Positions 12,351-62,305 of a stretch of DNA of 64,000 bases are shown piece by piece. The stretch is from Lotus japonicus. Taxonomy: Eukaryota; Streptophyta; Magnoliopsida; Fabales; Fabaceae. Numbering within the stretch: position 1 is the stretch's first letter; each line of letters begins with the position of its first letter. The stretch spans positions 64,535,920-64,599,919 of the forward strand of contig NC_080043.1 in NCBI RefSeq assembly GCF_012489685.1. Reading direction: 5' to 3'. Below the pieces are notes generated by a model. That model searched no databases. It saw nothing but the letters and a program-made list of their open reading frames with translations, and had not been told where the DNA came from. A program made the translations under genes and the position numbers.

Positions 12351-14657
12351 CGATGGCAACTTACTTACTAGCTATTGCTTTGTAGGCGTCGATAACTTCG
12401 ACTTGTTTATTGTTTATGCTTATGATTGTTTGAGCTGAACTGTAAAATGTTTTCTGGAGGCTTCGGCCGAGTGAATTGATTGAGACGTGTGTTTCCGTTT
12501 TCTGGGGCTTCGGCCGACATTGGTGATTGAGTTTATTTATCGCATTGATTGCTATTGATTGATTCATATGTTATACTTGCTAAATGGATAATCATAGGCT
12601 ATGTGCATACTTGTGCACATGATTTGTTGGATTATATTGATTATATTGTGCAATTATACGAATATTTGAGGAACGTTAGAGTGTGGGGAAACGGGTAGTC
12701 ATGCCATACTCATGATGAGATTTTGGAAAGTTTGACGGGACGAACCAAAGTTCGAACCCTTATTATTGTTTACTGGATCGAGACCTTCTCTGGGAATTAT
12801 TTGGTATTATGGGATCTTTTGAAACTTATAAGGTTAGAGACAAACTTAAATGGAAACTATTTTACAAGGAAAATTCATAATATACTAAACAACCTCTAAA
12901 CCTCTTAAATAATGATAAAAGTCTCAGACGAAAGCTTAGGGCTTGGACATTAGTTTTGGAAAATGAGAAGTGTTGCGGAATCCAAGTTTTGGGGAAATTC
13001 CTTGTGCTCTGCACTTTGCTCAATGAGCAGTTTTATTTGTTTGGCTATCTCAAAGATAAGTCGGGGAACTATAAGTTTCTCAGTACATTGGTACTTCTTC
13101 GCTCTCTGAGCAACTTTTGACTATCGATTTTAGATAGTCTGATGATTCAATAAATCATCAAGGGTGATTGCACTCTTTTTATATAAATTATCTTTTCTCG
13201 TAAAATTGACATTTACCTTCGGGTATTCTTGGAGTTAATATTCTAATTGGACACGTGTGAGTCCGTAAATTCGACCATGCAAGGTTGAATCGACTCGACG
13301 ATGTATTGTAGAGATAATGGGTTCTAGTTAGGCACGAATCTGGGCAAGGACGAATCGTTGTCTGACTAACCATATTGCATCATGCATTCATACTTTTGTC
13401 ACGCGCGAATCCGTGTGTTCAACCCGATGGGTTGGACCGATTCAGCAATAGTTGTTTTGACACGCGCCAGTCCGTATATTCAATCCGATTGATTGGATCG
13501 ATTCGGCGGTAGTGACTCAGGCACGTGTGAGTCCGTATGTTCAATCTGATGGATTGGATTGATTCAGCAATAGCCATTTAAACCCGCATGAATCCGTATG
13601 TTCAATCCGATGGATTGGATCGATTCAGCGATATTCTTTTGACTCGCGTGAATCCGTATGTTCAATCCGATGGATTGGATCGATTCAGCGATAAGCTTTC
13701 GACACGCGCGGATCCGTATGTTCAATCCAATGGATTGGATCGATTCGGCGATAGTCATTGAACACGCGCAATGTTCGTATATTTGACTCTAATGAGTCGA
13801 ATCGACTTGGCGTTGTCATTTGTTACGTGTGCGAGTCTGTATATTCCACCCAATGGGTTGGGTCGACTTGACATGCCTATTCGTTGGGATCATCTTTTGA
13901 ATTGACATTGCATTCATATATGCACCCTAACTTGAATTGTTGAGATATTGCTTATTGAATTGTTGAGATATTGTTTATTGAAATGTTGTTAGAGGTTCGA
14001 TAACCTGCTATGTATATACCTTAGGGTAGGCAATTCTGAACTTATATGTATATATACAACATATATATATATCTATATACCCCCTTATTCTTCACATGTT
14101 GCTTGTATTATCTATTGATACTGTGAGTTGACCCTCACGCCTTGGCTTTGTGTGTATGTTTGTGTTTGGGCGGTCGGCCTGCTGCCAGACGTCCAACAGA
14201 TGATTCGAGTTGATCCACCGCTCGGGGAGGATCCTGAGCGAAATGTCTACTACTGAGCCTTCGACGCGGACCCGAACTTCATGCTGGATCATATGAGGGT
14301 CGATGTTAGGGGTGTAGTATATGGGGTGTTGTTGTCATAGCTCTGATTGTTATTTCTCTTTTAGGGCAGGGTAGATCCCCGACCATTAGCTTTTTGTGTG
14401 ATTCTCTTCCAAGAGGATCACAGGGAGTTTGTCGGACGTAGGAGGTCTTTTGGAGGACTCTATTTATAAAACTTTGACTCGTACTTTGGGTTTGTACTTA
14501 TTTGCCTTCGGGCACCAATTTCAGATATTTTCTGCTACTTTTCCGTCACTGGAGGTTACTCGTGACGTGGTTTTTCCTTACAACGGGGGCTGTAAATATA
14601 TTTTACATTAGTTATGTTTATTGATGTTGGGTTGAGTCTTTATTTTGACAGATATTT
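12351..14657 (+). mobile_element. A1-type LTR, first part (5'-truncated, split by insertion)
   Basis: From ACTTACTTACTAGC onward the sequence parallels the LTR at 14658-18978 (equivalent start near 16725). The U3 and promoter part is missing. It breaks off at 14657, where another LTR begins, and resumes at 18979. It contains the 60-bp stem-loop array, a decayed LTR ORF region near 14150-14330 and the terminal hairpin at about 14544-14567. Confidence 0.75.
13397..13880 (+). repeat. 60-bp stem-loop minisatellite (8 units)
   Basis: In LTR sense each unit reads GTTCAAYCC-GAT-GGRTTGGAY or a variant, giving 8-9 bp stems if G-T pairs are allowed. Arms covary: CAACCC/GGGTTG (about 13420), CAATCC/GGATTG (several), GACTC/GAGTC (about 13780). 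Confidence 0.85.
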
Positions 14658-22268: not shown

Positions 22269-22483
22269 AGAATCTTCACTGAGGCGTGAGACCTCGTGAA
22301 AAGCATGGATCTTCACTGAGGCGTGAGACCTCGTGAACAGCATGAAACTTCATTGAAGCGTGAGACTTCGTGCAAGTGTGTAAATTCACTGAGGCGTGAG
22401 ACCCTGTGAAAGCATAAAACTTCACTGAAGCGTGAGACTTCGTGATGGTATAAGACTTCACTGAAGAGTGAGACTTCGTGAGA
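22269..22483 (+). repeat. 35-bp stem-loop minisatellite (6 units)
   Basis: The core is TTCACTGAGG-CGTGAGA-CCTCGTGAA. In other units the inner arms read GAAG/CTTC instead of GAGG/CCTC while the loop stays CGTGAGA. The array occupies the LTR slot where other copies have the 60-bp array. Confidence 0.85.
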
Positions 22484-23149
22484 GCATTGATGACTCGAAG
22501 AGTTATCGTGAGTGATTGTACTCTTTTTATGATTAATTGTATTTTGTCGCAGAATCGACTTTTACCTTAGGGTATGCTTTTAGAGACAATAAGTTAGCTA
22601 GAACACGTGGCGACGTGTCGAGTGAGGTCGGAGACGTTGTTTGGCTAATCATTTTTGCATTCATGCACTCATTTTGAGGTATTAACACGGGAATGGTCAT
22701 AAGACCCGGATTTCCGCGTAAGAGCGCTATTAGGCGACTCTTAGTAGCAGACCGAAATGGCAGGCCTTCGGGTTTTATGCTGATCTGGCTACCTTTGTGT
22801 GGTGTAAGAGGTACGCGGGCCGAAATGGTCCCACCGTGGCTGGTGCTGGGGCTGATCCGTTGATGTCCATCCTTTCCGGAATGCATTTTGGTTAACTGGG
22901 TTAACCGACATTTGCATTTCATGCAACATGCATACTGACTTAGTTGTTGAGTTGTTGAGTGTGTTTGATACTTGTTAATCCTATTTGATGCATGCTATTT
23001 GCTATTACTGCCGTTTTATATTCATTGTGAAATATACAACCCTAGGATGCTATCTTTAACTTATAAGCCTAAGTGGCTATCTCTTATCTTTACCTATTGG
23101 ATTTATTATTTACGTAATTCTTTGGAGTTGACCCTCGCATCTTCTGTGT

Positions 23150-35174: not shown

Positions 35175-36769
35175 GTAAAAAAATCAAAATATCTCCCATA
35201 ACTTCCATTAGTGGCCGCGGGTTTGAAGAAGAGGAGAGGAGAGGAGAATTTCGCCGAAACTCGACCGATCTTCGAGCAGTTTGTCACTACTTCAAGGTAT
35301 CAAGGTAGCTAGCTTGATTCTTACCTCTGATCATTCTTTTCGTCGTGTTTCTTTAGCTATTTCTGTGCTCAAAGTTTCGAGCTTTTCATAAAACTATCCG
35401 TTTTTCTTGATTTTTCGCTTGGGATATCTTCTGTACTTGCCCAAGAGCCTAGAACACTCGCCGATATTCGCCGATTTTGATTGAGTTGTCAAGGATCTGA
35501 AAAACTGATTCAAAACCCTTTTTGCGCACATTTTGAAACTTTAATGTTGAAAAGTCGCAATCCGACTTCGTGCCTTTAGGATTAGTTGCTACAAATGTCG
35601 TTAGGAACATCGCTGTCAAATTTGTTTTCCGAAGTTTTAACTTTGAGGTTTTCAGCTTTTATTTTGGACCAAAACGACCCTAAATAGCCGTATTTCGATC
35701 CGACCGTCCGAAATTTTTTCCGACAGTTTCTTTGCCTTAGTTTTACCCTAAAACTACCTTGTAATTAATTTAGATTGAAGAAAAATCGGCCCACCTAATT
35801 GTGCATAGTGGCCGAGAGCATGTTTGTGTGGGGGAGAGTTTTTCATTTTCGAAAACTTGTCTTTTCGTACCCGATTGTTGTATTCTGAAGCTTCAATGCT
35901 TTGTCTATCGTTAATTAGCTGTATTGTGATCGAGCTAATCGATTTTGTTTGGATTTCTGCTTTGTTTTCTCCGAGGTTCAGTTGAAGGAACTTTGGGTTT
36001 CTCAGAGAAATTGTGTGAAGGAAACTTAGACCACGAGGCTGGAGCAACTCGAGGATAGGGCAACCTACTATTAGCTAAGACTGCATGATAGGCGTCGATA
36101 AATTCGACTTATATTTTACTTTGATATTGATTATGATGATGAATTAATGTTACTACGTTTTTCATGACTTATGATATTGAGATGTTATTGAATTGTGCGT
36201 TTTCACGCGACTTCGGAGCGAAGAATCACTAAACTGATTCCTTTTGATCTTTCGGGTTGAATGAACAACCCTAGGCAAGTCCAAACTCAAGGTTTGGGAC
36301 TTAGCTATCGTTTATATACTTAGACTTTCCCCGGGGGATACATTTGGTGGGATTTTGGCAAACTTAGCATGAATAGAATCTTGGAAACTAAAGACTTTAG
36401 GAAACTTAGACTTCAAAAAATAAACTCACAACTTGACTAATCCAATTCGAAATGTTTTCATTAACGAATAAACCATAGGGAATCTCAATGGGAAAAAGAT
36501 TGCGAAAGACGGGGAAAAGTCGACTTTTGTTGTGGGTTCTGAAGAATTGTTGGACACCAGGGAGGGGGGTGAGCCACGGTGATGATTGAAAGTCACCGAG
36601 TACTCTAGTACTCTTGTTGTTGGAGTTTGTGTTGTATTGACCGACACTAACTCTTGGGTTTTGGAATTGGGTTTTAAGCTAAAAACTTGTGTTGTGAGGA
36701 CGATTCGATGTTTGGCTAACCATATTGCATCATGCATCATTCGGGGTTTGTACAATCGAAAGATTAGGC

Positions 36770-36850
36770 TCCGGTGAAGAACGGGAATGCTTCACGAATG
36801 GTGAAGAACGGGAATGCTTCACTAGTGAAGAACGGGAATGCTTCACGAAG
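36770..36850 (+). repeat. Short hairpin array of A2 LTR (3 units)
   Basis: Units GTGAAG-AACGGGAATG-CTTCAC; the minus-strand equivalent of the loop is CATTCCCGTT, as in the longer arrays at 50200-50450 and 58890-59140. Confidence 0.8.
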
Positions 36851-37935: not shown

Positions 37936-37950
37936 TGGTATCAGAGCTTA
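37936..37950 (+). other. Primer binding site of A2 element
   Basis: TGGTATCAGAGCTTA, 3 nt after the LTR end, complementary to initiator-Met tRNA. Confidence 0.88.
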
Positions 37951-38142
37951 GTCGAGTCTTTTGGGAGTCTTTGGGGAATAGGTCTTCTATGCTAGGTTGT
38001 GTGACTCTGCAAAGAGTGAAAATTGATTGTCTGCAGAGCGATTTTCGCTCTAATTGTTTGCGTTACTACTTAAATCATATTGAATGGTTTGTCTGGTACT
38101 ACCTTATGGTTAGTACTAATTGGACGTTTGATGAGATATAGG

Positions 38143-45873: not shown

Positions 45874-46022
45874 TATCCCGCATTCACAAGGTCTCACGCC
45901 TCAGTGAAGCTTCATGCTGTTCACGAGGTCTCACGCCTCAGTGAAGATCCATGCTTTCCACAAGGTCTCACACCTCAGTGGAGTATCACGCATTCACAAG
46001 GTCTCACGCCTCAGTGAAGCTT
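45874..46022 (-). repeat. 35-bp stem-loop minisatellite (4 units)
   Basis: Units with GGTCTCACGCCTCAGTGAAG, the complement of the array at 22269-22483. Confidence 0.85.
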
Positions 46023-48307
46023 CTCGGCACATCCCTTGGATGGCTAAACAAACTGCTCCCAGAGCGAATGAGTATCAACATACTCAGAACTCACAATCTT
46101 TCTCAACACTTGGATCCGACGACACTTCTCGTTTTCCAAAACTGATATTTGCATCCTAAGCTTCCTTTCGAGTTTATTCTCATTATTTGAAGATTTAGAG
46201 GTTGTTTAATGTCTTATGAGTTTTCTTTACAAAATAATATCCTTTTAGTCTTATCGCAAATCCTATAAGTTCTCGGGATCTCCTAATCCCCAACTCACAC
46301 CAGAGAATGTCTCGATCCATAAAACACCATAACAAGGCCCGAATCTCATTCGTCCTATCAAACTTTCTCAAAACTCTCAAAATAAAATCGGCATGACCTG
46401 CCCGCTATTCTCACTACTCAGAATCTCAGATTTCATTGCAAGAGCATAATTAACTCAGCACAATCAATCAACATGTCATATATCAACATATTAAGCAATA
46501 ACCACGTAGCAGTTAGCATATAAGGCATACCTCACACATCCTAAATTACCCAATTAGCACTTAGCATGTAAGTGCATTCAGTAGATGAATCATCTACATT
46601 GTCAGCCGAAGCCTCAGAAAACATTTTTTCAATCAACCACAAACAAGTGCATAAACAGTAAACAATGTCGAAAGCATCGACCCTAAGCATTATCTAGAGA
46701 TTCAGTGAGAAGCCCTCACCTGAAGATTCTCCAGGGTGATCTTCGAACTCTTCCTCACAAGCAAAGCGTTGCTCCTCAGGAAATTCTTCAAAAGCACCTT
46801 TTAAGGTAAAACCACAGAATACTATCAGAATCTATCGGAAACTAAGCTATCAATACGCACTAAGGTTACATGAAGCAGTATATACTTCGAGGTACGATAA
46901 TCTAGCGCGAAAGGACAAGTTTTCGGAAAAGGAAATTTTCCTCCTCCCCCCTAATAGGTTCGGCCACTTTTGGTAATTGTAAGGTTCGATTTTTCTTCGA
47001 TCAAACTTGGTTCCTATGCTATCATTAGCCGTAACTAAGGGTATTCTGAACTCGGAAAAATTATCGGATCGAAAACTGTCGCAGGGGTATTTTGGTCATG
47101 ATTTTCGAAAACTGAAATCCCGAAAAGCAAATTTTGCAGGGACGTCACCAACGACGTTTATGACAACTGATCCTACTAGCACTAAGCTAAGGCGATAGTT
47201 TTCAGCCTAAAGGTTGAAGCTTTACTCCAAAAATGGGTATTTAAGGCATAAATTGATTCCGGCGGAATTCCGGCGACATTACGGAAAATCTAATCCGGCA
47301 GAAGTGATCTTGGGCACGTAAGGAAGATGTTTAGACAGAGAAATCAAACTATTTGGACAATTTTCCAAAAACCTCAAAACTAAGAGCACAGAAAGACATA
47401 GGAAAAAGCTATGGAAAAAGCGATCAGAGGTAAGGATTAGCGACTATACCTCGAAGCCTTGAAGTAGCAACTGATTGATCGACGATCAAGCAAGGAATGA
47501 ACAAAATCTCTTCTCCTCCTCTCCTATGCAAACTCGCGACCTTGAGTGGGTTTTTGGGTGAGTTTTTGTGTTTTTTCTTCCTTTCTTGGCTATATACAGG
47601 GGTTGGCAAAACGCGGTAAAATGAAAGTTTCGCGAATCTTATTTTTCCGGCTTCATACTCCATGAATTCTAAGATAGGTTTTGGCGACATAATACCAAAA
47701 CTAAAATGAGGTCTCCTTGTATTTTTGGTAACTAATGCAAAGTCGGTGTAAAACTATTTTACCCGATAAGTTGCTTTTTGCATCGAATGTCGGAATAGAA
47801 AACTTCCTTCTGAAGAAAGGTTGAAATCATCAAGAGAAATGGGTGTACGCGTGTGGAATCTTCATTTGATGTTCCGAATAGAAAAAGTCTTCATTGTCGG
47901 TTGATTCTAGGGTTTTGAAATACCAGGGATTCGATTTCTGCAAACTTCCGATGATTGGAATCGGACGTTCGTAGATCCTAGAGTTTCGCCTCGAAACGAT
48001 TGTGATATATGGAAAAAGAGAAGTTCTAATATTTCTCTGAAGATTTTTTTGGAATTAACTTCCATCGTGCCTATACGTGAAAACTAGCTATCTACTAGGG
48101 TTTCTGACCTAGGTTTAAGCGTGTAACGATCGTGCTATAACTTTTATCGACTTCGATACATTCCTTAGACTTTTCCTGAACTTTCTCCTTCATAAATATA
48201 TTCCATTCGATGAACTCTTGTTCAGGTTTTCCTTCACGATATATTAAGCCTAGTCGTAAATGGACATCTCTTCCACTTTTTCTAAGCTTAAAAACTTGGG
48301 TCTTACA

Positions 48308-48832
48308 TTACTACCCTCCAAAAAGAAAGTTTCGTCCTCGAAACTTAAGGTTCAGTAAAAATTCCGGATATTATTCCTTGATCTTTTCCTCTAATACCCA
48401 TATAGTACCGTCCGTGTCTTTGTTCCAAATAACTTTCACTAAAGCACTCTGCTTTCTCCTTGATCATTTCACTATTCCAGCCCCAATGCGGACCGACGGC
48501 GTCTCAAAAGACATATCATCTTCCAACTCTATGTTGTCCGGTTCAACCACTTGCATCGGATCTCCGTTGAAAATAATATTTGTTGGCATTCGTGCATTCG
48601 CACAGCCTTTACCACTTATTCCTTTGCTTTTGTTCATCCAAAATGTTGATTAGAAGCTCGGTACATCTCTATGCTCCGGAGTGAATGCTCAACTTGAGTC
48701 TTAATACCTTGTGCATCACAAGACTCATTCCCTTTAACATTAACTTATCAACAACTTATAAGCTAAACTTCATCTTAATATCTAACAATTCATTATTATC
48801 GTCTTCGTCCTCAAAACCTTCCTCACTCAAAC
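48308..48832 (-). pseudogene. Decayed pol 3' end of the second A1-type element
   Basis: Next to the LTR are a polypurine tract (GGAGGGTAGTAA on minus), a decayed chromodomain region, then scrambled integrase pieces: a GVPTNI-like segment near 48580 and the zinc-finger stretch near 48640-48700. Large internal deletions and stops are evident. An A2 element interrupts it at 48833 after CAAAC. Confidence 0.75.
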
Positions 48833-49300
48833 TGTAACACCCCGATTTCCAGGTGTCACCTTAGTAACCAAAAATAAACTTTACGCGGAAAACAGGTAAT
48901 TTTTTTTTCGTTTTCTTTCCTTTAATTAAAGCGATAAAGAAGTAAAGACAACACCCATCAACTAACTAACCGATATACATCATATACAAAGGTACAGCCT
49001 CAGCTGCACTATCCCGTCACGCGTACACGCAGTGACTCCAAGGTAGCATGCCCGTAGGCGAATATACACAAACCATCACTGTAACCAAGAGGTATCAAAA
49101 TACAGTTATCCAGAGCAAGTCGGCACTCAAAAATGGTCTGAAAGAAAGACCCCTATACTCCGACAGACTCTCTGTGATCCTCCTCAAAAGAACCACACAA
49201 AAAGCCACAAGTCGGAACCTACCCTGTCCCAACAAAAGACTGACGATCAGAGCTCTACACAAAAAATGTCGCTAATCCTAACCTACCCTCCCAGCTCAGC

Positions 49301-49996
49301 TCACCAATCCTCCTCCTCCTCATCGCTGCTCGGCGAGTAGCTCTCCCCACTGCTCTCGGAGTCAGAGTCGGAATCCACCGTAATCATCTCGGTGTCCAAA
49401 TCCATAACCTCCTTCCTCACTGTCCTGCGCACCGCCCTAGTCGAGCCGGTCTCCACGTCTACCTCTCCTGCAAGAACATCCTCCTCCACCACCCTCATCA
49501 AGGGGTCCACACGGTAGCCGTGCGGTGAAGAGAAAGACAAAAGACGTGAGGCAGATGGGACGACAGACTCCCTCCTCGGCTGTACGAGCCTAGAGGACGA
49601 CGCCACGTCGGTAGAAGCGATGGCAGTAGCCGGAGGTGGCACAACAGGTGTAACAGCAGCAGCAGCAGGCTCGATCTCCTCTGGGTCCTCCTCAACAGAA
49701 GGTGAAGTCGGAGGTGGTGCATGTCCAGTGCCTGGTCCACAATGAACTGAGGGCGGCAAGTCAAAACTCAGCTCCATACGCCGTAGAACTCCGCTCGTCA
49801 GGCGTCCTCGCTCATCCGTCCGGTCCTCCATGACCCTTCCCCTATAAGTCGCCCGGTGATCAGCTACGTCGATCACCCAAGCGGTGGGGGCATCCCTATC
49901 CAGCAGCTCATATCTGATCCCCCCCGAGGGAGAGACCGTCGAGAACCAGTCGGCCATCGACATCTGGCAGCAGGCCGACCGCCCAAACGCAAACAT
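49301..49996 (-). CDS. LTR-resident ORF, 231 aa, function unknown ('ORF0'-like)
   Basis: ATG at 49996, uninterrupted to TAG-region stop. Features by residue: Cys-rich start (GRSACCQMSMADWF, 5-18), a conserved block (WVIDVADHRATYRGRVMEDR, 40-59), VLRRMELSF (70-78), HCGPGTG (85-91), an acidic then Ala/Pro-rich linker (100-125), Ser/Arg segment (130-155), and an acidic tail with MITVDSDSDSE (204-214) and SSDEEEEDW (223-231). I recognise no known domain. It lies about 2.1 kb downstream of the TATA box and upstream of the primer site and gag, so it would sit in the RNA leader. Homologues, mostly broken, occur in five other LTRs in this window. The copy at 57990 differs at three residues and is also open. 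Confidence 0.6.
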   Translation of the reverse strand: MFAFGRSACCQMSMADWFSTVSPSGGIRYELLDRDAPTAWVIDVADHRATYRGRVMEDRTDERGRLTSGVLRRMELSFDLPPSVHCGPGTGHAPPPTSPSVEEDPEEIEPAAAAVTPVVPPPATAIASTDVASSSRLVQPRRESVVPSASRLLSFSSPHGYRVDPLMRVVEEDVLAGEVDVETGSTRAVRRTVRKEVMDLDTEMITVDSDSDSESSGESYSPSSDEEEEDW

Positions 49997-50203
49997 ACAA
50001 ACAAAGCCAAGGCGCCAGGGTCAACTCACAGCAATAAGTACATATACACTCAACATGTGACAGGGTATATTTATAAGCTGTTATATAAGCATATAAGTAA
50101 TCCTAGCATGTTATGGCTCTAACATTGCTTCAATAAACAAACAGCACACAATCTCAGTCAGCATGAATGTATGCGTGAAATGCAATTATGAATCCGGATG
50201 TGT

Positions 50204-50450
50204 GACGCGTTCCCGTTCGCCACAAGTGAAGCATTCCCGTTCTTCACTATGGATGGACCATTCCCGTTATCCATCCTGGATGAAATCCATCCTGGATGAA
50301 CCATTCCCGTTATTCATCCTTGGTGAACCATTCCCGTTATTCACCATATGATGAACCATTCCCGTTATTCATCATTTATGCAAGGTGAACCATTCTCGTT
50401 ATTCACCATGATATGCACAGGTGAACCATTCCCGTTATTCACCCGATTGA
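50204..50450 (-). repeat. Hairpin array with constant CCATTCCCGTTA loop (7-8 units)
   Basis: Plus-strand units with arm/arm pairs: AGTGAAG/CTTCACT, GGATGGA/TCCATCC, GGATGAA/TTCATCC, TGGTGAA/TTCACCA, ATGATGAA/TTCATCAT, GGTGAA/TTCACC (twice). The loop is nearly invariant while arms differ yet stay complementary. Confidence 0.92.
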
Positions 50451-50530
50451 ATGCAACGTGATTAGCCAAACAACGAATCGTCCTTACCACGAGAGTGTCT
50501 AGCTCACAACACAATCTCAAACAACTCAAT

Positions 50531-50683
50531 GAGTTAGTGTCGGTCAATACAACACAACTCGGAGTAAGTGTCGGTCAATACAACACCACTCCCTCAACAA
50601 GAATACACAAGGGTCTAGTGTCGGTCAATACAACACAGCCCAAACAACGAGAGCACTAGGTGTCGGTCAATACAACACGGCTC
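50531..50683 (-). repeat. Second hairpin array with constant GTGTCGGTCAATACAACAC core (4 units)
   Basis: Inner stem GTGT/ACAC around CGGTCAATACA is constant. Outer arms covary: GAGT/ACTC, GGAGT/ACTCC, GGGT/GCCC, GAGC/GCTC. A further palindrome GAGTACT-AA-AGTACTC follows near 50700. Repeated in the other LTR at 59220-59380; one unit remains near 36610-36655. Confidence 0.9.
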
Positions 50684-52159
50684 CACAACATTCCCCAAGA
50701 GTACTAAAGTACTCAGTGACTTTCACTCATCACCCTAGCTCACCTTAGTGGCTTTCCCCAATTCCGATAGCTCTCCAAACCCACAACAAAGTCGACTTTC
50801 CCCGTCTTTCGTAAATATTTTCCCCATTAATTCTCCTATACTTAAACATTAATAAAAATGATTACAATTCAGATTAGTCAAGTTATGAGTTTATTTCTCA
50901 AAATCTAGGTTTCCCAAGTCTTTAGTTTTCGAAATTCTAATCCTTCTAAGTTTTCCGAAACTAACCACCCAAAGAAGTTTCCCGGGGAAAGTCTAAGTTT
51001 TTCAACGATTCCCAACAAATGGCTAAGTCTCAAAACCCTCATTTGGACTTGCCTAGGGTTGCTCCTCCAACCCGAAATATCAAAGATCACCAGATCAATG
51101 AATCTCCACTCCGAAGTTGCGTCAAAACGCTCAATTCAACACATCATCAATATCATAAGTTATGAAAACATTCATAGCAATAAACCATTATCATAATCAA
51201 TATCATAGCAAAACATAAGTCGAATTTATCGACGCCTATCATGCAATCATAGCTAATATATATGTAAGTTGCCCTAACCTCGAGCTGTTCCAGCTTCGCA
51301 ATCAAAGTTTTCCTCAAACACTTGCTCTGAGTATTCCAAAGTTCCTTCAACTGAACCTCGGAGAAAAACAAAGCAGAATCCAAACAAAATCGATTAGTTC
51401 GATCACAAAACAACACATAAACGATAGACAAAGCATTAAAGCTTCAGAATAAGACAATCGGGTATGAAAAGACAAGTTTTCGAAACCGAAAAACTCCCCC
51501 CCCCTAAGGAATAGCCCACGGCCCTAAAGGAGAAAAGGGCTTCGGCTCTTTTTCTTCGATCAAATCAATTCACAAGGTAGTTTTGGGGTAAAACTAAGGC
51601 AAAGAAACTGTCAAAACAATTTTCGGACAAACGGGTCGAAATACGACTACGCAGGGGCATTTTGGTCCAAAATAAGGCTCAAAACTTCAAAGTTATCAGT
51701 TCTGAAAACAGATTTGACAGTATTGATCCTCATGACATCCGTGACAACAAATCCTAAAGGCACGAAGTCAGATTATAGCTTTACGACAATAAAGTTTCGA
51801 AATGTGAGCAAAAAGAGTTTTGAATCAATTTTTCAGATCCTGGACAACTGAATCACAATCAGAGTTTACTGACAGAGATTTTAGGCTCTTGGGAACCTAG
51901 AGAACATAACCCAAGCGAGAAAACAGAGAAATCGGACAATTTTAGAAAAAGCTCAAAACTTAGAGCACAGAAACGGCGTCAGAAACGCAACAGAAACAAC
52001 AATCAGAGGTAGGAATCGTGTTAGTTACCTTGATACCTAGAAGTAGGGACGAACTGCACGAAGATTGGTCAAGGTTTCGCGAAAATCTCTTCTCCCCCAA
52101 GCTCTCCACAATTCTAGGCCAAGAAGAAAGAAATGAAGAGGATTTTTGCTTTTTCGTGC

Positions 52160-52167
52160 TATTTATA
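52160..52167 (-). promoter_or_regulatory. TATA box of A2 LTR
   Basis: TATAAATA on the minus strand, 0.69 kb from the LTR start. Confidence 0.6.
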
Positions 52168-52858
52168 GGCGGGTGAAATCGCGGGAAAATGAAAATTTCG
52201 CGATTCCGATTTTTGCAGCACGATCACCAAAGAATTCTAAGAGAGATTCCGGTGTCAGAATTCCAGAACTCAAAACCAATATCTAAGATTTGGGAAAAAC
52301 GATATCGAAAACGCCAAAAGCGGTATAAATTAGTCTGTCCCGAAAAACTACTTTTTGCTGTGATCGCCGGATGACAAAACTTCTTTCTGAAGAAAGGTTG
52401 GAAATGTCGAAAAAAATCTGGCAACACGGACGGAATCTTCGTTAGAAGTCCCGAAAAGAAAAAGTCTTCATCCACCGCTCGAATCTAGGGTTTCGAAGCA
52501 AAGAAATTAGCGTTGGCGGACATCCGAAAAGTGAATACTATCGTGCGTACAGTCCAGAGTTCCAAAATGAAACGCTGGTCGATGGAAAAATAAAGAGAAT
52601 CTTTAAATTTTCCAAGAGTTCGAAATCTCACTTAAAACGTTACTCTAAGAGCGAAAAAGCCTATTCTGTACACGCTCGCCATAAGGCAAGGGTGCAGACA
52701 ACTCGCACTCGCTCCGAAAACAACGACGCAACATTCCTCAAGCAATTCCTGAACTTTCTTCTTCATTAATCTTTCTCAAATATCAAACTCCTGTCACGCT
52801 TACACTGATCCTACGCGTGAGTCGGAAATTAACTTGTTCTGAAAATCCAGGTCTTACA

Positions 52859-52870
52859 ATACTCCCCTCC
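52859..52870 (-). other. Polypurine tract of youngest A2 element
   Basis: GGAGGGGAGTAT (minus) directly before the 3' LTR start TGTAAGACC, preceded by TTTCGAGGTCGAAACTTTC. Confidence 0.88.
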
Positions 52871-52895: not shown

Positions 52896-53041
52896 TCAGA
52901 GTTCTGCAAACAGTCCGGGGTACAGTTCCTTGATCTTATCTTCCAATTCCCATGTAGCATCCCCCGTATCCTTGTTCCATATCACCTTTACCAACGAAAT
53001 CTGCTTTCCCCTCAGCTGCTTCACTCTTCGATCCCCAATAC
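52896..53041 (-). pseudogene. Chromodomain end of pol, separated by a frameshift
   Basis: In a different frame from the main ORF this stretch encodes [35 protein letters not shown] and ends LFAEL-stop. It is homologous to the in-frame C-terminus of the fragment at 42585-44404. A small indel near 53040 (between ETP and SIGD) throws the main frame into a stop, so the polyprotein would lose its chromodomain. Confidence 0.85.
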
Positions 53042-56000
53042 TCGCGGTGTCTCAAAAGTCAAATCATCCTTCAGTTCAACATTGTCTGGCTCGATGACAT
53101 GAGTCGGATCTGGAATGTACTTCCTCAACTGCGATACATGGAACACATCATGAATGTTGGAAAGAAATGGTGGTAGTGCAATCTGATACGCAACTGGTCC
53201 AACACGTCGCGTGATTTGATAAGGCCCAATAAACTTTGGCGTGAGCTTCCTTGACTTAATAGCTCGTCCAACCCCCGTAGTTTGAGTAACTTGTAGAAAC
53301 ACATGATCACCTTCCTCAAACTCTAGGGTTCTACGTCTCTGATCAGCATAACTCTTCTGTCTGCTTTGTGAAGCTCTCATCTTTTCTCTGATCTGCTTGA
53401 CCTTCTCAGTCGTCTGTTGCAGCATTTCCGGCCCAATCAACAAACTCTCCCCATCTTGATACCAACACAACGGTGTCCTACACTTTCGACCATACAAAGC
53501 TTCATACGGTGCCATCCCAATGCTCGCATGAAAACTATTGTTGTAGGTGAATTCAATCAATGGTAGAAGATCATCCCAGCTTCCTCTGTTATCCAACACA
53601 CAAGCCCGTAGCAGATCCTCTAGCGACTGAATAGTTCTCTCTGTTTGTCCATCGGTTTGTGGATGATACGCCGAACTCAATCTCAGCTTGGTTCCTAACG
53701 CATCATGAAGAGCTCCCCAAAAGTGCGAAGTAAACTTCGGATCCCGATCAGACACAATGCTTGTCGGAACCCCGTGTAGTCTCACCATCTCCGCCACATA
53801 AATCTCAGCCAACTTCTCCACATTGTAGGTAGTTCTCACCGGTAGAAAATGCGCTGACTTGGTCAAACGATCCACAATCACCCAAATCGAATCATGTCGC
53901 TTCTGTGTTCTTGGCAAAGCTACCACAAAATCCATGGATATACTATCCCATTTCCACTCTGGCACGTCTAAGCTCTGTAGCATACCAGCAGGTCTTTGAT
54001 GCTCTACCTTCGCCTTCTGATAAGTCAAACATGCAGCTACATACTCAGCTACTTGCTTCTTCATTCCCGGCCACCAGGAATTCAGTTTCAAATCTTGATA
54101 CATCTTGGTCATTCCCGGATGAATACTCCATTTGCTCTTGTGTCCTTCATCCATGATCAGCCTTCTCAATTCCGGATTGTTGGGTACACACACTCTGTCC
54201 TTGCATCTTAAGACATCATCCGTTCCGATCTTGAATTCCGGGTCTTTCCCTTGAATTACCAAGTTCCTCTTCTCCAGCAGAAACTCATCTTGCAGTTGTT
54301 GCTCTCTAATCTCCTCCATCAGTCCACTGGCAATTCTGATCATTCCGAATTTCAGTTTTCCCTCAGACGGTGTCACGCCTAAACTCATATCTCGAAATTG
54401 CTCCAGTAACTCCAGCTCCTTAACCATCATTGACGAGACATGCATCTTTCTGCTCAAAGCATCAGCAACTATATTCGCCTTCCCAGGGTGATATTGCAAT
54501 GTAAACTCATAGTCTTTGATGAACTCCATCCATCTTCGTTGCCTCATGTTCAGCTCCTTTTGATCAAACAAGTATTTAAGGCTCTTGTGATCGCTAAATA
54601 TTGTGAAAGTACAACCATAGAGATAATGCCTCCAGATTTTCAGCGAAAACACAATGGCAGCTAACTCCAAATCGTGAGTCGGATAGTTCCTCTCGTGAGT
54701 CTTCAACTGTCTCGAAGCATAAGCCACCACTTTTCGATGTTGCATCAGCACACATCCCAAGCCTTGATACGAAGCATCACAATAGACCTCATAAGGTTCA
54801 TCCGGTTGTGGCAAAATAAGCACAGGTGATGTCGTCAACCGTTCCTTCAAAGTCTGAAAACTTGTTTCACACGCCTCTGTCCATGCAAAAGGTTGATCCT
54901 TCCTCGTCAATTGAGTCAAAGGTCCAACAATCTTGGCAAATCCCTCAATGAAGCGTCTATAGTATCCGGCCAAACCCAAAAAACTTCTGATCTCTGTCAC
55001 TGTCTTCGGTTGCTCCCAAGCCAAAACAGTCTCCACTTTCGCTGGATCCACAGTTATGCCTTCCTTTGAAATAACATGGCCTAAGAAATTGACTTCCTCT
55101 AGCCAAAATCCACACTTGGAAGGGTTCGCGTACAGCTTCTTCTCTCTCAATACTTGCAAAACTTGGCGCAAATGTCCTTCATGTTCCTTTGCGTCCTTCG
55201 AGTAGATCAGTATGTCATCAATAAACACCACCACAAACCGATCTAAGAACTCATGAAAGATGCGGTTCATGTAATCCATGAAAACAGCAGGTGCATTTGT
55301 CACTCCAAACGGCATCACTAGGTACTCGTAGTGTCCGTAGCGTGTTCTGAATGCAGTCTTTGGTACATCTTCAGTCTTCACTCTGATCTGATGATAGCCT
55401 GACTTCAAGTCTATCTTGGAAAATACAGCAGCCCCTCGTAACTGATCCATCAAATCATCTATCCTCGGCAACGGGTATCGGTTCTTGATCGTCGCCTTGT
55501 TCAACTGTCGGTAATCCACGCACAATCTCGACCTTCCGTCCTTCTTCTTGACTAAAAGCACTGGCGCTCCCCACGGTGAAACACTTGGTCGAATGAATCC
55601 TTTTGCCGATAGATCCTCCAACTGAGATTTCAACTCCACTAACTCCGCAGGTGCCATACGGTAAGGTGCAATCGAAATCGGTCCAGTTCCGGGTACAATG
55701 TCGATCACAAACTCTACATCGCGCACAGGCGGCAGTCCAGGTACATCTCCGGGAAAAACATCCGCAAAATCTCGAACCACCGGAATACCTTGAATATCCG
55801 ATTCCTTCTTTCCCTCCAGACTTAGCAACGAAAAGTACTTCTGAGTGCCCTCGCTCAACGATGCACTAATGTGGTTAGTAGAAAGATACTCGAAAAGATC
55901 CGAGTCTGGGAACACCACTTTCTTTCGACTATAGTCCAAAAGACAATGGTAGTGGGATAACCAATCCATCCCAAGGATTACATCTAGGTTTTTAAGGGGT

Positions 56001-57313
56001 AGACATACTAAGTTGGCATGAAAAGTTCTATCTTTATATACTACTGAACAGTGCATGCATGCGGCATTAGCAATTAGAGTCCTAGCAGGTGTAGTCACCA
56101 TAAGATCAAAACTCAAAGTAGTAATGGGCAGATGCAGTCTTGATACGCAATCCTTAGAGACAAAAGAATGAGTTGCACCAGAATCAAAGAGTACAGTTAG
56201 AAGATTACCGTCAATTTCACATTCTCCTCTGATCAAACCATCAGCTCCTTCAGCCTCTTCTCCATCCATGGTATACACTCTTCCCTTTGCCACTGGGCGC
56301 TTCCCACTAACAGCATTCACAGACGGTTCCACCTTTGGTGCCTTACATTCCGTAGCCAGATGCCCAGATTTATTGCAGTTGTAGCATCTTGGTGGTCTCG
56401 TGCAGTTGTTTGCATAGTGCCCGGTTCCTCCACACCGGAAACAAGTCACCTCACGGTTTGGGGTACGGCTTCCCGACCCTCCTGAAGTAGCAGCAGCAGC
56501 CATCGGCTTATAAGATCCCGGGGTAAACCCTCTCCCCGCAGGACGTTGATATGGCTTCCTAGCCTGAAACCTTCCCCTTCCTTGATAACTTTGTGGTGTC
56601 GACCTCACCGGTCCCCCTGTTCCAACCCTGTTATATCTCCGATTCTTCATCAATTCCACCTCAGTTGCTTTCTCCACCAATGCTTGGAACCTCGTGATCC
56701 CCAATGGTCTCACCGAGTCTTCAATATCAGGCCTCAATCCCCTCACAAATCTCTTGCACATGTAGGGCTCATCAACTTGGTCACGGAAAAACCGAAAGTA
56801 CTTCGCCAGAGACTCTAACTTGGCAGCATACTCCGGAATGGTCATGCTTCCTTGTTTCAGAGTCAGAAACTGTGATTCACGCTCATCACGAGCACTGTCA
56901 GGAAAATACTTCTCGAGAAAAGCTGCTCGGAAGGAATTCCAGTTCACTTCCACATGATTGGCTTCCATCATCCCTCTGGCGCCTCTCCACCAGTACTCAG
57001 CATCTCCCAACAACAGATAGGTTGCCAGCCCCACTTTGGCTCCCTCAGCAGTCTGTAACACACCAAAGATCTTCTCAATCTCTTCTATCCAAAGATCTGC
57101 TTTGTCCGGGTCAGTACCTCCCGAAAACTTAGGCGGATCCTGTCTCCTGAAGTCATTCAACCCTTTATTCTGATCCAGAGTCGCCTCCCTCTGACGCTGG
57201 TGTTGATCACGCGCTTCCTCCGCAGCACGTCTCAAAGCATTGTCATTCGCTTGGTTAGTCATTGCCTGGGCCATAGTGGCCATCATCTCCGCTAGCTGAT
57301 TCGTGTTCACCAT
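53021..57313 (-). CDS. gag-pol: Tekay gag-pol polyprotein, 1430 codons, chromodomain lost by frameshift
   Basis: ATG 57313, 209 nt from the LTR. Domains: Gag capsid-like region 55-225; two CCHC knuckles at 291-304 and 310-323; protease with FDSGATHSF at 376-384; reverse transcriptase with [20 protein letters not shown] and FIDD at about 696; RNase H from CDASYQG (about 842) with [11 protein letters not shown]; integrase with HHCC finger and DDE core (D about 1128, SDRDPKF about 1188, QTDGQTERT about 1225); [14 protein letters not shown] near the end. Two lesions: the second Cys of the integrase finger is Tyr (CLTYQKAK, versus CLTCQKAK in the older copy at 42585-44404), and a frameshift before the chromodomain ends the frame at VLGIEE. 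All other key residues I checked are present. Confidence 0.92.
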
Positions 57314-57506
57314 CGTCTGTTAGCCCCAAGAAAACTGTTAGTCCTAAACGTAGAATAGCACCAAAACTATTACATATGGTTAAGCAACCATGCAATCAAT
57401 TAGAACGAAAAATCGTTCTGCAGACAATCAATTTTCACTCTTTGCAGAGTCACACAACCTAGCACAGAAGACCTATTCCCCAAAGACTCCCAAAAGACAC
57501 GACTAA

Positions 57507-57518
57507 GCTCTGATACCA
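57507..57518 (-). other. Primer binding site of youngest A2 element
   Basis: TGGTATCAGAGC on the minus strand, 3 nt from the 5' LTR. Confidence 0.9.
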
Positions 57519-57989
57519 CAATGTAACACCCCGATTTCCAGGTGTCACTTTAGTAACCAAAAATAAACTTTACGCGGAAAACAGGTAATTTTTTTTTCGT
57601 TTTCTTTCCTTTAATCAAAGCGATAAAGAAGAAAAGACCACACCCATCAACTAACTAACCGATATACATCATATACAAAGGTACAGCCTCAGCTGCACTA
57701 TCCCGTCACGCGTACACGCAGTGACTCCAAGGTAGCATGCCCGTAGGCGAATATACACAAACCATCACTGTAACCAAGAGGTATCAAAATACAGTTATCC
57801 AGAGCAAGTCGGCACTCAAAAATGGCCTGAAATAAAGACCCCTATACTCCGACAGACTCTCTGTGATCCTCCTCAAAAGAACCACACAAAAAGCCACAAG
57901 TCGGAACCTACCCTGTCCCAACAAAAGACTGACGATCAGAGCTCTACACAAAAACTGTCGCTAATCCTAACCTACCCTCCCAGCTCAGC

Positions 57990-58685
57990 TCACCAATCCT
58001 CCTCCTCCTCATCGCTGCTCGGCGAGTAGCTCTCCCCACTTCTCTCGGAGTCAGAGTCGGAATCCACCGTAATCATCTCGGTGTCCAAATCCATAACCTC
58101 CCTCCTCACTGTCCTGCGCACCGCCCTAGTCGAGCCGGTCTCCACGTCTACCTCTCCTGCAAGAACATCGTCCTCCACCACCCTCATCAAGGGGTCCACA
58201 CGGTAGCCGTGCGGTGAGGAGAAAGACAAAAGACGTGAGGCAGATGGGACGACAGACTCCCTCCTCGGCTGTACGAGCCTAGAGGACGACGCCACGTCGG
58301 TAGAAGCGATGGCAGTAGCCGGAGGTGGCACAACAGGTGTAACAGCAGCAGCAGCAGGCTCGATCTCCTCTGGGTCCTCCTCAACAGAAGGTGAAGTCGG
58401 AGGTGGTGCATGTCCAGTGCCTGGTCCACAATGAACTGAGGGCGGCAAGTCAAAACTCAGCTCCATACGCCGTAGAACTCCGCTCGTCAGGCGTCCTCGC
58501 TCATCCGTCCGGTCCTCCATGACCCTTCCCCTATACGTCGCCCGGTGATCAGCTACGTCGATCACCCAAGCGGTGGGGGCATCCCTATCCAACAGCTCAT
58601 ATCTGATCCCCCCCGAGGGAGAGACCGTCGAGAACCAGTCGGCCATCGACATCTGGCAGCAGGCCGACCGCCCAAACGCAAACAT
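57990..58685 (-). CDS. LTR-resident ORF, 231 aa, second copy
   Basis: Same frame and length as 49301-49996. Three amino-acid differences by eye (Glu/Asp near 172, Lys/Arg near 195, Ser/Arg near 215) plus about three silent changes. Because the 5' LTR lost its promoter, this copy is probably silent unless read through. Confidence 0.6.
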   Translation of the reverse strand: MFAFGRSACCQMSMADWFSTVSPSGGIRYELLDRDAPTAWVIDVADHRATYRGRVMEDRTDERGRLTSGVLRRMELSFDLPPSVHCGPGTGHAPPPTSPSVEEDPEEIEPAAAAVTPVVPPPATAIASTDVASSSRLVQPRRESVVPSASRLLSFSSPHGYRVDPLMRVVEDDVLAGEVDVETGSTRAVRRTVRREVMDLDTEMITVDSDSDSERSGESYSPSSDEEEEDW

Positions 58686-58889
58686 ACAAACAAAGCCAAG
58701 GCGCCAGGGTCAACTCACAGCAATAAGTACATATACACTCAACATGTGACAGGGTATATTTATAAGCTGTTATATAAGCATATAAGTAATCCTAGCATGT
58801 TATGGCTCTAACATTGCTTCAATAAACAAACAGCACACAATCTCAGTCAGCATGAATGTATGCGTGAAATGCAATTATGAATCTGGATG

Positions 58890-59140
58890 TGTGACGCGTT
58901 CCCGTTCGCCACAAGTGAAGCATTCCCGTTCTTCACTATGGATGGACCATTCCCGTTATCCATCCTGGATGAAATCCATCCTGGATGAACCATTCCCGTT
59001 ATTCATCCTTGGTGAACCATTCCCGTTATCCACCATATGATGAACCATTCCCGTTATTCATCATTTATGCAAGGTGAACCATTCCTGTTATTCACCATGA
59101 TATGCACAGGTGAACCATTCCCGTTAATCACCCGATTGAA
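58890..59140 (-). repeat. Hairpin array with CCATTCCCGTTA loop, 5' LTR copy
   Basis: Same units as 50204-50450. Recent substitutions break single pairs in three units (for example GGTGAA with TCCACC). Confidence 0.9.
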
Positions 59141-59219
59141 TGCAACGTGATTAGCCAAACAACGAATCGTCCTTACCACGAGAGTGTCTAGCTCACAACC
59201 CAATCTCAAACAACTCAAT

Positions 59220-59380
59220 GAGTTAGTGTCGGTCAATACAACACAACTCGGAGTAAGTGTCGGTCAATACAACACCACTCCCTCAACAAGAATACACAAG
59301 GGTCTAGTGTCGGTCAATACAACACAGCCCAAACAACGAGAGCACTAGATGTCGGTCAATACAACACGGCTCCACAACAT
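59220..59380 (-). repeat. Second hairpin array, 5' LTR copy
   Basis: Same four units as 50531-50683; the last inner segment reads GATGTCGG instead of GGTGTCGG. Confidence 0.88.
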
Positions 59381-60486
59381 TCCCCAAGAGTACTAAAGTA
59401 CTCGGTGACTTTCACTCATCACCCTAGCTCACCTTAGTGGCTTTCCCCAATTCCGATAGCTCTCCAAACCCACAACAAAGTCGACTTTCCCCGTCTTTCG
59501 TAAATATTTTCCCCTTTAATTCTCCTATACTTAAACATTAATAAAAATGATTACAATTCAGATTAGTCAAGTTATGAGTTTATTTCTCAAAATCTAGGTT
59601 TCCCAAGTCTTTAGTTTTCGAAATTCTAATCCTTCTGAGTTTTCCGAAACCAACCACCCAAAGAAGTTTCCCGGGGAAAGTCTAAGTTTTTCAACGATTC
59701 CCAACAAATGGCTAAGTCTCAAACCCCTCATTTGGACTTGCCTAGGGTTGCTCCTCCAACCCGAAATATCAAAGATCACCAGATCAATGAATCTCCACTC
59801 CGAAGTTGCGTCAAAACGCTCAATTCAACACATCATCAATATCATAAGTTATGAAAACATTCATAGCAATAAACCATTATCATAATCAATATCATAGCAA
59901 AAATAAGTCGAATTTATCGACGCCTATCATGCAATCATAGCTAATATATATGTAAGTTGCCCTAACCTCGAGCTGTTCCAGCTTCGCAATCAAAGTTTTC
60001 CTCAAACACTTGCTCTGAGTATTCCAAAGTTCCTTCAACTGAACCTCGGAGAAAAACAAAGCAGAATCCAAACAAAATCGATTAGTTCGATCACAAAACA
60101 ACACATAAACGATAGACAAAGCATTAAAGCTTCAGAATAATACAATCGGGTATGAAAAGACAAGTTTTCGAAACCGAAAAACTCCCCCCCTAAGGAATAG
60201 CCCACGGCCCTAAAGGAGAAAAGGGCTTCGGCTCTTTTTCTTCGATCAAATCAATTCACAAGGTAGTTTTGGGGTAAAACTAAGGCAAAGAAACTGTCAG
60301 AACAATTTTCGGACAAACGGGTCGAAATACGACTACGCCGGGGCATTTTGGTCCAAAATAAAGGCTCAAAACTTCAAAGTTATCAGTTCTGAAAACAGAT
60401 TTGACAGTATCGATCCTCATGACATCCGTGACAACAAATCCTAAAGGCACGAAGTCAGATTATAGCTTTACGACAATAAAGTTTCG

Positions 60487-60793: not shown

Positions 60794-61727
60794 CAGTGTT
60801 ATCAGACTCGACCCGGAGATCGACTCGGTCAGGGCACTGGGTCAATGGGTCACTGGTCTAACCATTGGGTCACTGGTTGAACCGTTTGACTCGGTTGACA
60901 CTAAAAAAAATGAAAAAATTCATAATCCAAAGACAAGCTTTTAGCATCTCTATATGTCTCAAATCCAAAGTTTCAGAAAAATGAATTTCAAAAGTTTAAT
61001 TGAAAGTTAGAGCTACAATTTTTTTTTCGTTCATATGTGTTTGACGTGAGCCCACACACAATGCAGCATATATATTATTTTTAATAACTACAAATGGGCC
61101 ATGATGGAAACTTTTGGCCCAACTTTTTTTTTACCCAACTTATACTAACCCTAATATTTTCCTTTACCCTCATTTACACTTCTCCAATATCTAACATAAG
61201 AAGCTGCAGCCGCACAACAGATATGAGACATTGATGTTGCAGGGTGAGAAAGGGGCAAGATAGAGGAAATGGAAAAGAGACAAGGCCAAAACCGATTCAT
61301 GAAATCCAAAGAAGAATCAACACACTCCGCTTTGCTTCTGTAACCATTCAACAGTTTCAACAACTTAGTAGTCTTATCCTTGGTACTCTCCCCACAACCC
61401 ACCTGAAGAAGAACGAGTAGCTTCTGAAAGACCCCAACTTGAAGCGCCTCAATCAACACCCATTCTTCAGTTTTAGAATTTTGAGCAGCACCCCTTCGAT
61501 CTGTTCTTCGTTTTGGATCATTTTGGAGTTATATTTTTTTTTTAAAAAGAATACCGGTCCAACCATAGCTCCGGGTCACCGGTTTTTATACTGACCCGGC
61601 CGGTTCAATCCGGTTCAAGGCGAGTCGATTGCATCCCCGATCCGTTGCTCGACTCAAACCGGTCAGGGGTCCGGTTTCCGGTTCAACCGATCAAACCGGC
61701 CGGTTCGAGCCGAGTCTGATAACACTG
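60794..61727. mobile_element. Non-autonomous hAT element with captured gene fragment
   Basis: 934 bp with perfect 17-bp terminal inverted repeats CAGTGTTATCAGACTCG / CGAGTCTGATAACACTG and an exact 8-bp TSD AGTATGAC (60786-60793 and 61728-61735). CAGNG ends with an 8-bp duplication define the hAT superfamily. The sub-terminal sequence is rich in GGTTCAA/CCGGT motifs in both arms. No transposase; it contains a U-box ligase fragment. Confidence 0.93.
61301..61459 (-). pseudogene. Fragment of a U-box E3 ubiquitin ligase (PUB20/21-like C-terminus)
   Basis: 53 codons: ALQVGVFQKLLVLLQVGCGE, TKLLKLLNGYRSKAECVDSS, LDF. I recognise this as the ARM-repeat C-terminus of plant U-box proteins of the PUB20/21 group. 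The parent's U-box domain and N-terminal ARM repeats are absent and the reading continues into unrelated codons, so this is a transduplicated piece, not a gene. Confidence 0.65.
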
Positions 61728-61735
61728 AGTATGAC

Positions 61736-61948
61736 TCTAAATCCAAACACATAGTGTTCATTAAGAAGCACAAAAATTCTCCATGAAAAAAAAAGGAGCT
61801 TCAAATAGAACAATTATTAAAAGTTAAAAAACAAAAAAAAATTCAGTTTACTAAAAGCAAAAAAAATTTCAGTTTACTTAAAACAACCAAGCGTGGTCGT
61901 TCTGCCATTCCGTTCCATTCTTCCTCTCCTCTCTCAACCCTACCCTCT
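61736..61948. other. AT-rich spacer, then gene leader; no gene seen
   Basis: A-rich sequence up to about 61880, then a CT-rich stretch (CCATTCTTCCTCTCCTCTC) that looks like a plant 5' leader continuing after the MITE at 62212. Confidence 0.35.
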
Positions 61949-62211
61949 GGGAGTTGGGTTTGGAGCCCCACCCCTTAGGCTTTGCACCCCACTAAAACAG
62001 ATACGGAATTTAAATTTCCGTATCAATACGGAAAATAAAATTCCGTATCTGTTTTAGTATATAATGAGTGGTTGAAAATGTGACACGCATGCTTAAATAC
62101 AGTACGGAATTTTAAGTTCCGTATTCAATATGGAGAATACGGAACTTTAAATTCCGTATTTGATAAAGTGGGGTGCCAAGCCCCATAGGTGGGGTGCCAA
62201 ACCCAACTCCC
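61949..62211. mobile_element. Mutator-type MITE with 9-bp TSD
   Basis: 263 bp. Long inverted ends begin GGGAGTTGGGTTTGG and stay similar for about 75 bp. The flanking repeat CTACCCTCT (61940-61948 and 62212-62220) is a 9-bp TSD, as in Mutator-like elements. The interior repeats ATACGGAATTT-type palindromes. Confidence 0.9.
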
Positions 62212-62241
62212 CTACCCTCTCCTCTCTCAACCGCCGCAACG

Positions 62242-62305
62242 ATGACGACGCCTCGCGCCTCCATTTTCAGCCCCTCCGCGTCTGTAATTCCAGACCACGA
62301 TTCAG
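62242..62305 (+). CDS. Exon 1 of a small gene of unknown function
   Basis: ATG 30 bp after the MITE's TSD, in the context CGCAACG-ATG-ACG. It encodes MTTPRASIFSPSASVIPDHD and ends in a GGTACAC donor (phase 1). The next acceptor is TTGATTAG at 62400. Together with exon 2 and a short third exon it could encode about 61 residues ending at TGA 62611-62613, or splice onward to the I29 block. Confidence 0.5.

Follow-up and report, generated by a model that had tools for sequence, protein, structure and literature searches.

The two hairpin arrays in the LTRs of A2, a retrotransposon of Lotus japonicus, are probably RNA hairpins of its sense transcript that have been kept by selection, judging from how their arms differ among copies of the element. 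The sequence-only reading of this DNA had proposed either selection on RNA structure or a hairpin-templated copying process. Covariation of the arms and the occurrence of wobble intermediates favor the former, while one-sided differences between neighboring copies and the lack of inverted loops make the latter less favored.

Two arrays of hairpins in the LTRs of A2

The window, i.e., the whole stretch of 64,000 nucleotides that was analyzed, lies within a 553.7-Mb assembly and contains A2 as a minus-strand element with a gag-pol frame between two LTRs. The 3' LTR (48833..52858, minus strand; 4,026 bp) was delimited by LTR alignment and by reading its ends, TGTAAGACC...GGTGTTACA on the minus strand. 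The 5' LTR (57522..60486, minus) was alignable up to 60486 only, its upstream part missing, and was 98.9% identical to the 3' LTR across 2,968 bp. The polypurine tract GGAGGGGAGTAT (52859-52870, minus) was read beside the 3' LTR, and TGGTATCAGAGC (about 57507-57518, minus), which we take to be an initiator-tRNA primer-binding site, follows the 5' LTR on the minus strand. Pfam searches with three pieces of the open frame (53021..57319, minus) identified gag, two zinc knuckles, protease, RT, RNase H, and integrase. Given this gag-protease-RT-RNase H-integrase order, the LTRs, the primer-binding site, and the polypurine tract, A2 is a Ty3/gypsy LTR retrotransposon. Its lineage name would presumably be Tekay/Del-type chromovirus; this filing was dropped because the open frame holds no chromodomain, none being found at the integrase end at E <= 0.001 (Pfam, three pieces), where the frame may stop early.

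Array 1 (50201..50443, minus) was delineated by hairpin search and consists of eight hairpin units, in which variable arms of 6 to 8 bp enclose the sense loop AACGGGAAYG (AACGAGAATG in one unit). The five array-1 hairpins quoted in the sequence-only reading were all there with perfect arms, and the perfect-arm hairpins of the array occupy 50225-50248, 50251-50276, 50294-50319, 50321-50346, and 50348-50375. The remaining looped units are at 50201-50224, 50384-50407, and 50420-50443, and a loop-less unit is seen in the sequence at 50278-50292 (minus). For 50204-50683 with 20 nt added per side, five perfect hairpins with arms of at least 7 were counted, compared to a mean of 0.72 and a maximum of 4 in 200 dinucleotide shuffles. 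The loop, described earlier as constant, is indeed common to the units as CATTCCCGTT (10 nt), but the C and A quoted as its ends form a U.G pair in the sense RNA. When one mismatch was allowed, this 10-mer was found 23 times in the window vs 3.8 expected.

Array 2 (50528..50685, minus), located by core search, has four hairpin units with variable outer arms around the core GTGTTGTATTGACCGACAC (sense), with exact 19-nt cores at 50537-50555, 50568-50586, 50618-50636, and 50660-50678. The outer pair that was tested did covary, as had been claimed, but the outer arms were looser than stated: those quoted as GGGT/GCCC read GGG(T)CT(A)/AGCCC and contain bulges, and the last unit, GAGC/GCTC, includes an insert that does not pair. 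Among the 273 scorable of 324 cores (at most one mismatch, 118 loci), this outer pair was A-T in 206, G-C in 55, A.C in 9, and G.T in 3.

Both arrays are also present in the 5' LTR. By LTR comparison, array 1 recurs at 58890..59132 (minus) with five substitutions relative to 50201-50443, flanks included, two of which are one-armed stem changes, and array 2 was found by core search at 59220..59375 (minus), with cores at 59226, 59257, 59307, and 59349. A motif search also revealed a related LTR in the opposite orientation (36629..36849, plus), which holds a single array-2 core at 36629-36647 and, at 36773-36849, three units of array 1. This LTR, at 34483-38285, has a pol end on one flank and a gag start on the other, an arrangement such as recombination between LTRs or tandem elements would leave. 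Elsewhere, three LTR copies were found in a row at even spacing in L043-L045 (about 11.4 kb) and L071-L073 (about 8.7 kb), suggesting tandem elements with common LTRs. No further array was found in the 40 kb adjoining the window.

Exact searches of the whole genome gave 8,857 matches for the array-2 core, 4,346 for one array-1 unit, and 1,457 for the stretch that separates the arrays, with a control of 0 in each case (reversed for the array-2 core). No Rfam family matched 48832-52858 up to E = 1. An exact 18-mer of an array-1 unit also occurred in contigs of a viral collection, with one match each in L035 and L036, possibly by chance. Thousands of copies in one genome amount to a natural mutational experiment, in which the comparison of neighboring copies gives the unselected input and the shared variants are the survivors of transposition. 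Such comparisons could tell RNA-level selection apart from copying by template switching and so bear on how hairpins keep their pairing.

Covariation of the arms across genomic copies

We sampled 118 loci in 92 groups, joining loci within 13 kb. Three loci were from the window, and the others had been chosen by an exact array-1 unit (22), the flank between the arrays (83), or an array-2 core (10); these 115 genomic loci were all on one contig, among the matches listed. Array-1 units were present in 70 loci (56 groups), comprising 3/3 window, 22/22 unit-chosen, 45/83 flank-chosen, and 0/10 array-2-core-chosen loci. They gave a set of 481 units with 73 distinct pairs of 8-nt arms, of which 68 were used for the covariation count after leaving out two non-hairpin types and three types exclusive to the window loci. 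A tree of 25 LTR flanks was poorly supported and was set aside.

Across distinct units, Watson-Crick pairing at stem positions 2 to 7 was 0.852, compared to 0.677 when the right arms were shuffled (largest of 2,000 shuffles, 0.726), and for types found in at least two groups it was 0.914 vs 0.702. In the 68 distinct units, 91.2% of cells were paired vs 74.0% with shuffled partners, and the covariation was 0.526 vs 0.226, with 0/500 shuffles as high in either case; arms slid against each other gave at most 0.117. Both-sided changes were seen in 8/8 stem pairs, a number reached by 13/500 shuffles. We also used a tree-based null for 92 units, a simple home-made one in which substitutions were re-placed on a tree built from the 46-nt units. 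Covariation again exceeded this null (0.523 vs 0.245; largest, 0.455; 0/500), as did the paired fraction (0.921 vs 0.717; 0/500), and the number of both-sided pairs was reached in 5/500 replicates. That both arms change together, as proposed from the window alone, thus holds above shuffled, slid, and tree-based nulls, and the absence of covariation above a phylogenetic null, which the sequence-only reading had named as evidence against itself, was not what we found with this simplified form of the comparison. Covariation above a phylogenetic null is asked of a conserved structured RNA element, and array 1 displays it with a simplified null on short units. On the sense strand, the closing pair was G-C in 37/68 and U.G in 31/68 and unpaired in 0/68, and the share of paired cells was 91.2% for the sense strand vs 82.2% for the antisense strand.

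Stepwise change could be followed within the array. Among the units, stem positions 3 to 7 were seen in both Watson-Crick states and in the intermediate sense-wobble state. In one slot with the same neighbors (L025, L027, L029, L055, L093, L120, L124, L125, and L127), the stems included GACAAAG/CTTTGTC, GACAAAG/CCTTGTC, GACGAAG/CTTCATC (a wobble form), and GACGAAG/CTTCGTC.

Ordinary tandem-repeat turnover, in which conversion or duplication spreads pre-formed hairpins and the covariation reflects shared ancestry, is in our view highly improbable. Fusions, gains, and losses of units were frequent, and hybrid units were found in L016, L018, L071, and L119, as turnover would have it. However, the tree-based and slid controls were exceeded, all eight pairs varied on both sides, and both arms had changed within the same slot. 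Furthermore, hybrids with mispaired arms were rare, the commonest form having 33 copies vs 4,346 for the intact unit. The earlier dismissal of ordinary minisatellite decay, on the ground that both arms differ between neighbors, calls for caution, since neighboring units do fuse (L016, L018). Units that had lost the loop and retained the arms were seen in L012, L013, L017, and at 50278-50292 in the window, possibly through slippage across the hairpin.

Strand distribution of wobbles and changes between neighboring copies

Neighboring copies, i.e., those within 13 kb and mostly presumed LTR pairs, were compared 16 times (113 units). Stem differences were one-sided in 16 cases and both-sided in 0, with 760 pairs unchanged and 15 with gaps. 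By kind, the one-sided differences were sense wobbles (5), antisense wobbles (5), others (5), and a change between two unpaired states (1); two trios were counted three times, so that there were about 10 distinct differences (3 sense, 3 antisense, and 4 other). With wobbles at 5:5 and all differences one-sided, the changes between neighboring copies show neither strand bias nor compensation, and since none was both-sided, no arm-copying is visible after insertion.

Because the unit is palindromic, a stem transition yields a G.U pair in either the sense or the antisense RNA, and the sense share predicted from the mutation spectrum of the flanks was 0.486. Among unit types found in at least two groups, 12 sense wobbles vs 1 antisense wobble were counted at stem positions 2 to 7, once types having three or more unpaired positions had been set aside; the 12 types are not independent, as five of them are one unit with different neighbors, and the sole antisense form among the shared types resembles two neighboring units fused together. 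At position 8, outside the stem, the shared types had 3 sense vs 4 antisense wobbles. We also applied a fixed rule to 49 arm types with 11 references, dropping 6 types that no single step linked to a reference and keeping 5 ambiguous ones apart. Unambiguous steps were 13 sense vs 3 antisense (4:0 for shared types and 9:3 for single ones) and ambiguous steps 2:1; the one-sided binomial p for 13/16 was 0.008, with few independent events behind it. Types from single elements, where the neutral expectation is balance, also leaned to the sense side, although the 9:3 ratio was not significant. Genome-wide, wobbled forms of one unit numbered 108 sense vs 87 antisense (nominal p 0.03, copies not independent), and 33 of the 87 antisense copies were one form that unit fusion can create. 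Together, these counts suggest that the asymmetry between sense and antisense wobbles is real, though as evidence it is moderate.

Folding measures did not single out the sense strand. Minimum-energy z-scores were -3.26 (sense) and -3.96 (antisense) for array 1 and -2.03 and -2.04 for the two strands of array 2, and wobble-tolerant hairpins at array-1 loci numbered 6.31 vs 3.61 shuffled on the sense strand and 6.14 vs 3.28 on the antisense strand, so that the strands hardly differed. Folding energy was set aside as a strand test, since both strands beat their shuffles, the antisense strand slightly more. A conserved structured RNA element should tolerate G.U pairs on the transcribed strand alone; for array 1, the 13:3 and 12:1 counts stand on one side of this question, and the 108:87 copies of one unit and the folding energies, with no gain for the sense strand, on the other.

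The loops were nearly uniform, with two forms accounting for 452 of 481. Loop mutation after insertion does occur, having been seen at 29 of 1,130 loop sites in neighboring copies. In orientation, 475 loops were forward and 0 were inverted.

These data bear on hairpin-templated copying, by which a template switch during reverse transcription or replication would rewrite one arm from the other with no selection on RNA. According to the passages available from two reports, template switching creates and mends hairpins (PMC8794818) and homogenizes the arms of inverted repeats while inverting spacers (PMC8604942), and the template-switch mutations of the former would likewise explain paired arm changes. 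Some differences within the same slot span more than one pair, as copying allows, and LTR pairs, when compared, would show no sign of copying that preceded insertion. Nevertheless, we regard this explanation as rather unlikely, as none of the 16 neighboring-copy comparisons revealed a both-sided change and as template switching would be expected to invert some of the 475 loops. Neither loop inversion nor a change of both arms in a single event, the outcomes expected of such switching, was seen in the A2 arrays. Nor does copying of DNA predict intermediates that proceed step by step through wobbles and lean to the sense strand.

In the explanation we favor, the arrays would be tandem RNA hairpins in the sense transcript, with selection acting on the pairing of the arms and on the sequence of the loop. 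New copies of units would arise via tandem duplication, and after insertion one arm at a time would be mutated with no strand preference. Over cycles of transposition, the surviving lineages would be those that keep stem pairing in the sense RNA, directly or via a G.U intermediate, and such survival would let both arms drift in concert around an unchanged loop. Three of these steps are inferred, namely selection, folding inside the cell, and transcription from the motif at 52160-52167. Also in favor of this explanation are the conserved TATA motif upstream, the subfamilies with other hairpins at the array site, and the hairpin arrays of two sister families, all described below.

Position in the presumed leader, possible roles, and related arrays

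The TATA motif at 52160..52167 (minus; TATAAATA), the presumed core promoter of the LTR, was identified by LTR alignment and is present at an alignable place in 6/6 aligned LTRs of families A and B. In sense order, it is followed by array 2, array 1, and an open frame, and the arrays are about 1.5 to 2.0 kb sense-downstream of it. This agrees with the earlier placement of the arrays downstream of a TATA box, and because the motif is conserved, the arrays would be transcribed from it. A second AT-rich, TATA-like stretch closely follows the arrays in the sense direction, at about 50070-50090, and a promoter could also be located there. At about 52030 (minus), downstream of the TATA motif, the stretch AAGGTATCAAGGTA...TACCTCTGAT was strongly kept between families A and B (six LTRs). 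It looks like a splice donor, and if a leader intron exists, the final location of the arrays would change. The open frame (49301..49963, minus), taken from the ORF list, lies within the 3' LTR sense-downstream of the arrays and encodes 220 aa from the ATG at 49961-49963. Read stop-to-stop, it has 239 codons and is found in both LTRs (49301-50020 and 57990-58709, both minus). No Pfam family matched this frame, and 5 of its 7 relatives were Lotus japonicus gene models.

The arrays could alternatively act as DNA-level dyads, i.e., sites for host factors working as an enhancer or silencer, with the RNA irrelevant. The array-1 loop holds what we take to be a MYB-type core (AACGG) and array 2 what we take to be a W-box core (TTGACC), both of which count for this idea, as does the TATA-like stretch just downstream of the arrays. 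In Sirevirus LTRs, palindromic repeats upstream of the TATA box have been proposed to be regulatory, as stated in the part of PMC2829016 consulted. Even so, we find DNA-level dyads distinctly unlikely. Recognized arms should be conserved, whereas in these arrays conservation lies in the loop and variation in the arms; the asymmetry between sense and antisense imperfect pairs is unexpected; and the TATA motif conserved in the six aligned LTRs is upstream of the arrays. For this last reason, the arrays were also rejected as an upstream enhancer of the 50070-50090 stretch.

If selection does act on the sense RNA, the arrays may, as a tentative suggestion, serve as a multivalent platform for protein binding within the long leader, with Gag nucleocapsid the most likely partner and packaging or sorting of genomic RNA the role. 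The support for a Gag nucleocapsid role in packaging consists of the two zinc knuckles found in gag by Pfam. Should the loop bind a protein, the arrays would illustrate the way in which genomic RNA is marked by a retrotransposon. Similarly speculative is a replaceable "hairpin cassette" in the LTR leaders of this group of elements, made of multivalent hairpins that would be read through their loops by Gag or a host protein; families would differ in the loop but retain the array format, which would resemble an arms race or a family-specific packaging code.

To our knowledge, plant Ty3/gypsy retrotransposons have been little explored for cis-acting RNA structure. Our literature search returned no account of LTRs in this group with hairpin arrays that covary and no fixed-loop, variable-arm array in a Ty3/gypsy leader. 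The nearest known kind are the palindromic repeats termed RM boxes (repeated motifs), found in the LTRs of Ty1/copia Sireviruses, as described in passages of PMC2829016. Like the A2 arrays, these are many palindromic units clustered near the promoter of a plant LTR that change fast between families, and the Sirevirus palindromes have been reported as small-RNA hotspots with predicted secondary structure (Bousios 2016, as summarized in passages of PMC5311732 and PMC10760457). In those passages, however, the Sirevirus boxes retain CGG-CCG as the core of their arms, have little sequence between the arms, and lie upstream of the TATA box of Ty1/copia elements, while the A2 arrays have a fixed 10-nt loop with variable arms and lie downstream of the conserved TATA motif of a Ty3/gypsy element. 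With domain order, core, and TATA position all different, the A2 arrays were not classed as RM boxes. The leader of the plant retrotransposon BARE contains packaging and dimerization signals (PMC3735527, in part), structured cis-acting RNA with the same role as the putative one proposed for the A2 arrays; unlike in A2, a repeated-hairpin array is not described in the passages of that source.

Other hairpins occupy the same site in further loci. Beside the same flank, type D hairpins were found in 24 loci by a loose rule and 10 by a strict one, with arms AAAGC/GCTTT, GAAGC/GCTCC, and GAAAGC/ACTTTC around ATCTC, AGCAC, or TGCAC, and their imperfect pairs were sense-strand G.U except for out-of-register matches. 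Another 24 loci were neither array-1 nor type D by the rule used, with examples such as AACAC-CGGCCTA-GTGTT and CGACAC-AGGCCTA-GTGTCG. Hairpins with arms of at least 5 per 240 nt numbered 6.39 vs 2.36 shuffled at array-1 loci (36 groups), 4.38 vs 1.67 in the mixed class (13 groups), and 3.06 vs 2.27, a slight excess, in type D (16 groups).

In the window, hairpin searches also located arrays in two sister families, B and C, which are small samples counted with no null. In family B, hairpins around CGTGAGA have the sense arms GAGG/CCTC and GAGG/CCTT at 45882..46023 (minus) and GAGG/CCTC and GAAG/CTTC at 22270..22487 (plus). Family C has 61-bp repeats with the short palindromes CAATCC/GGATTG and CAACCC/GGGTTG at 13394..13759 (plus), with relatives at 5997-6483 and 17590-17968. 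Outside A2, perfect hairpins were dense in two bins within 61501-62250, at 4 and 7 per 250 bp. Finally, 65-bp repeats at 23754-24078 and 19790-19941 carry hairpins such as ACTTGGTT-GAGC-AACCAAGT, whose arms, unlike those of arrays 1 and 2, are constant.
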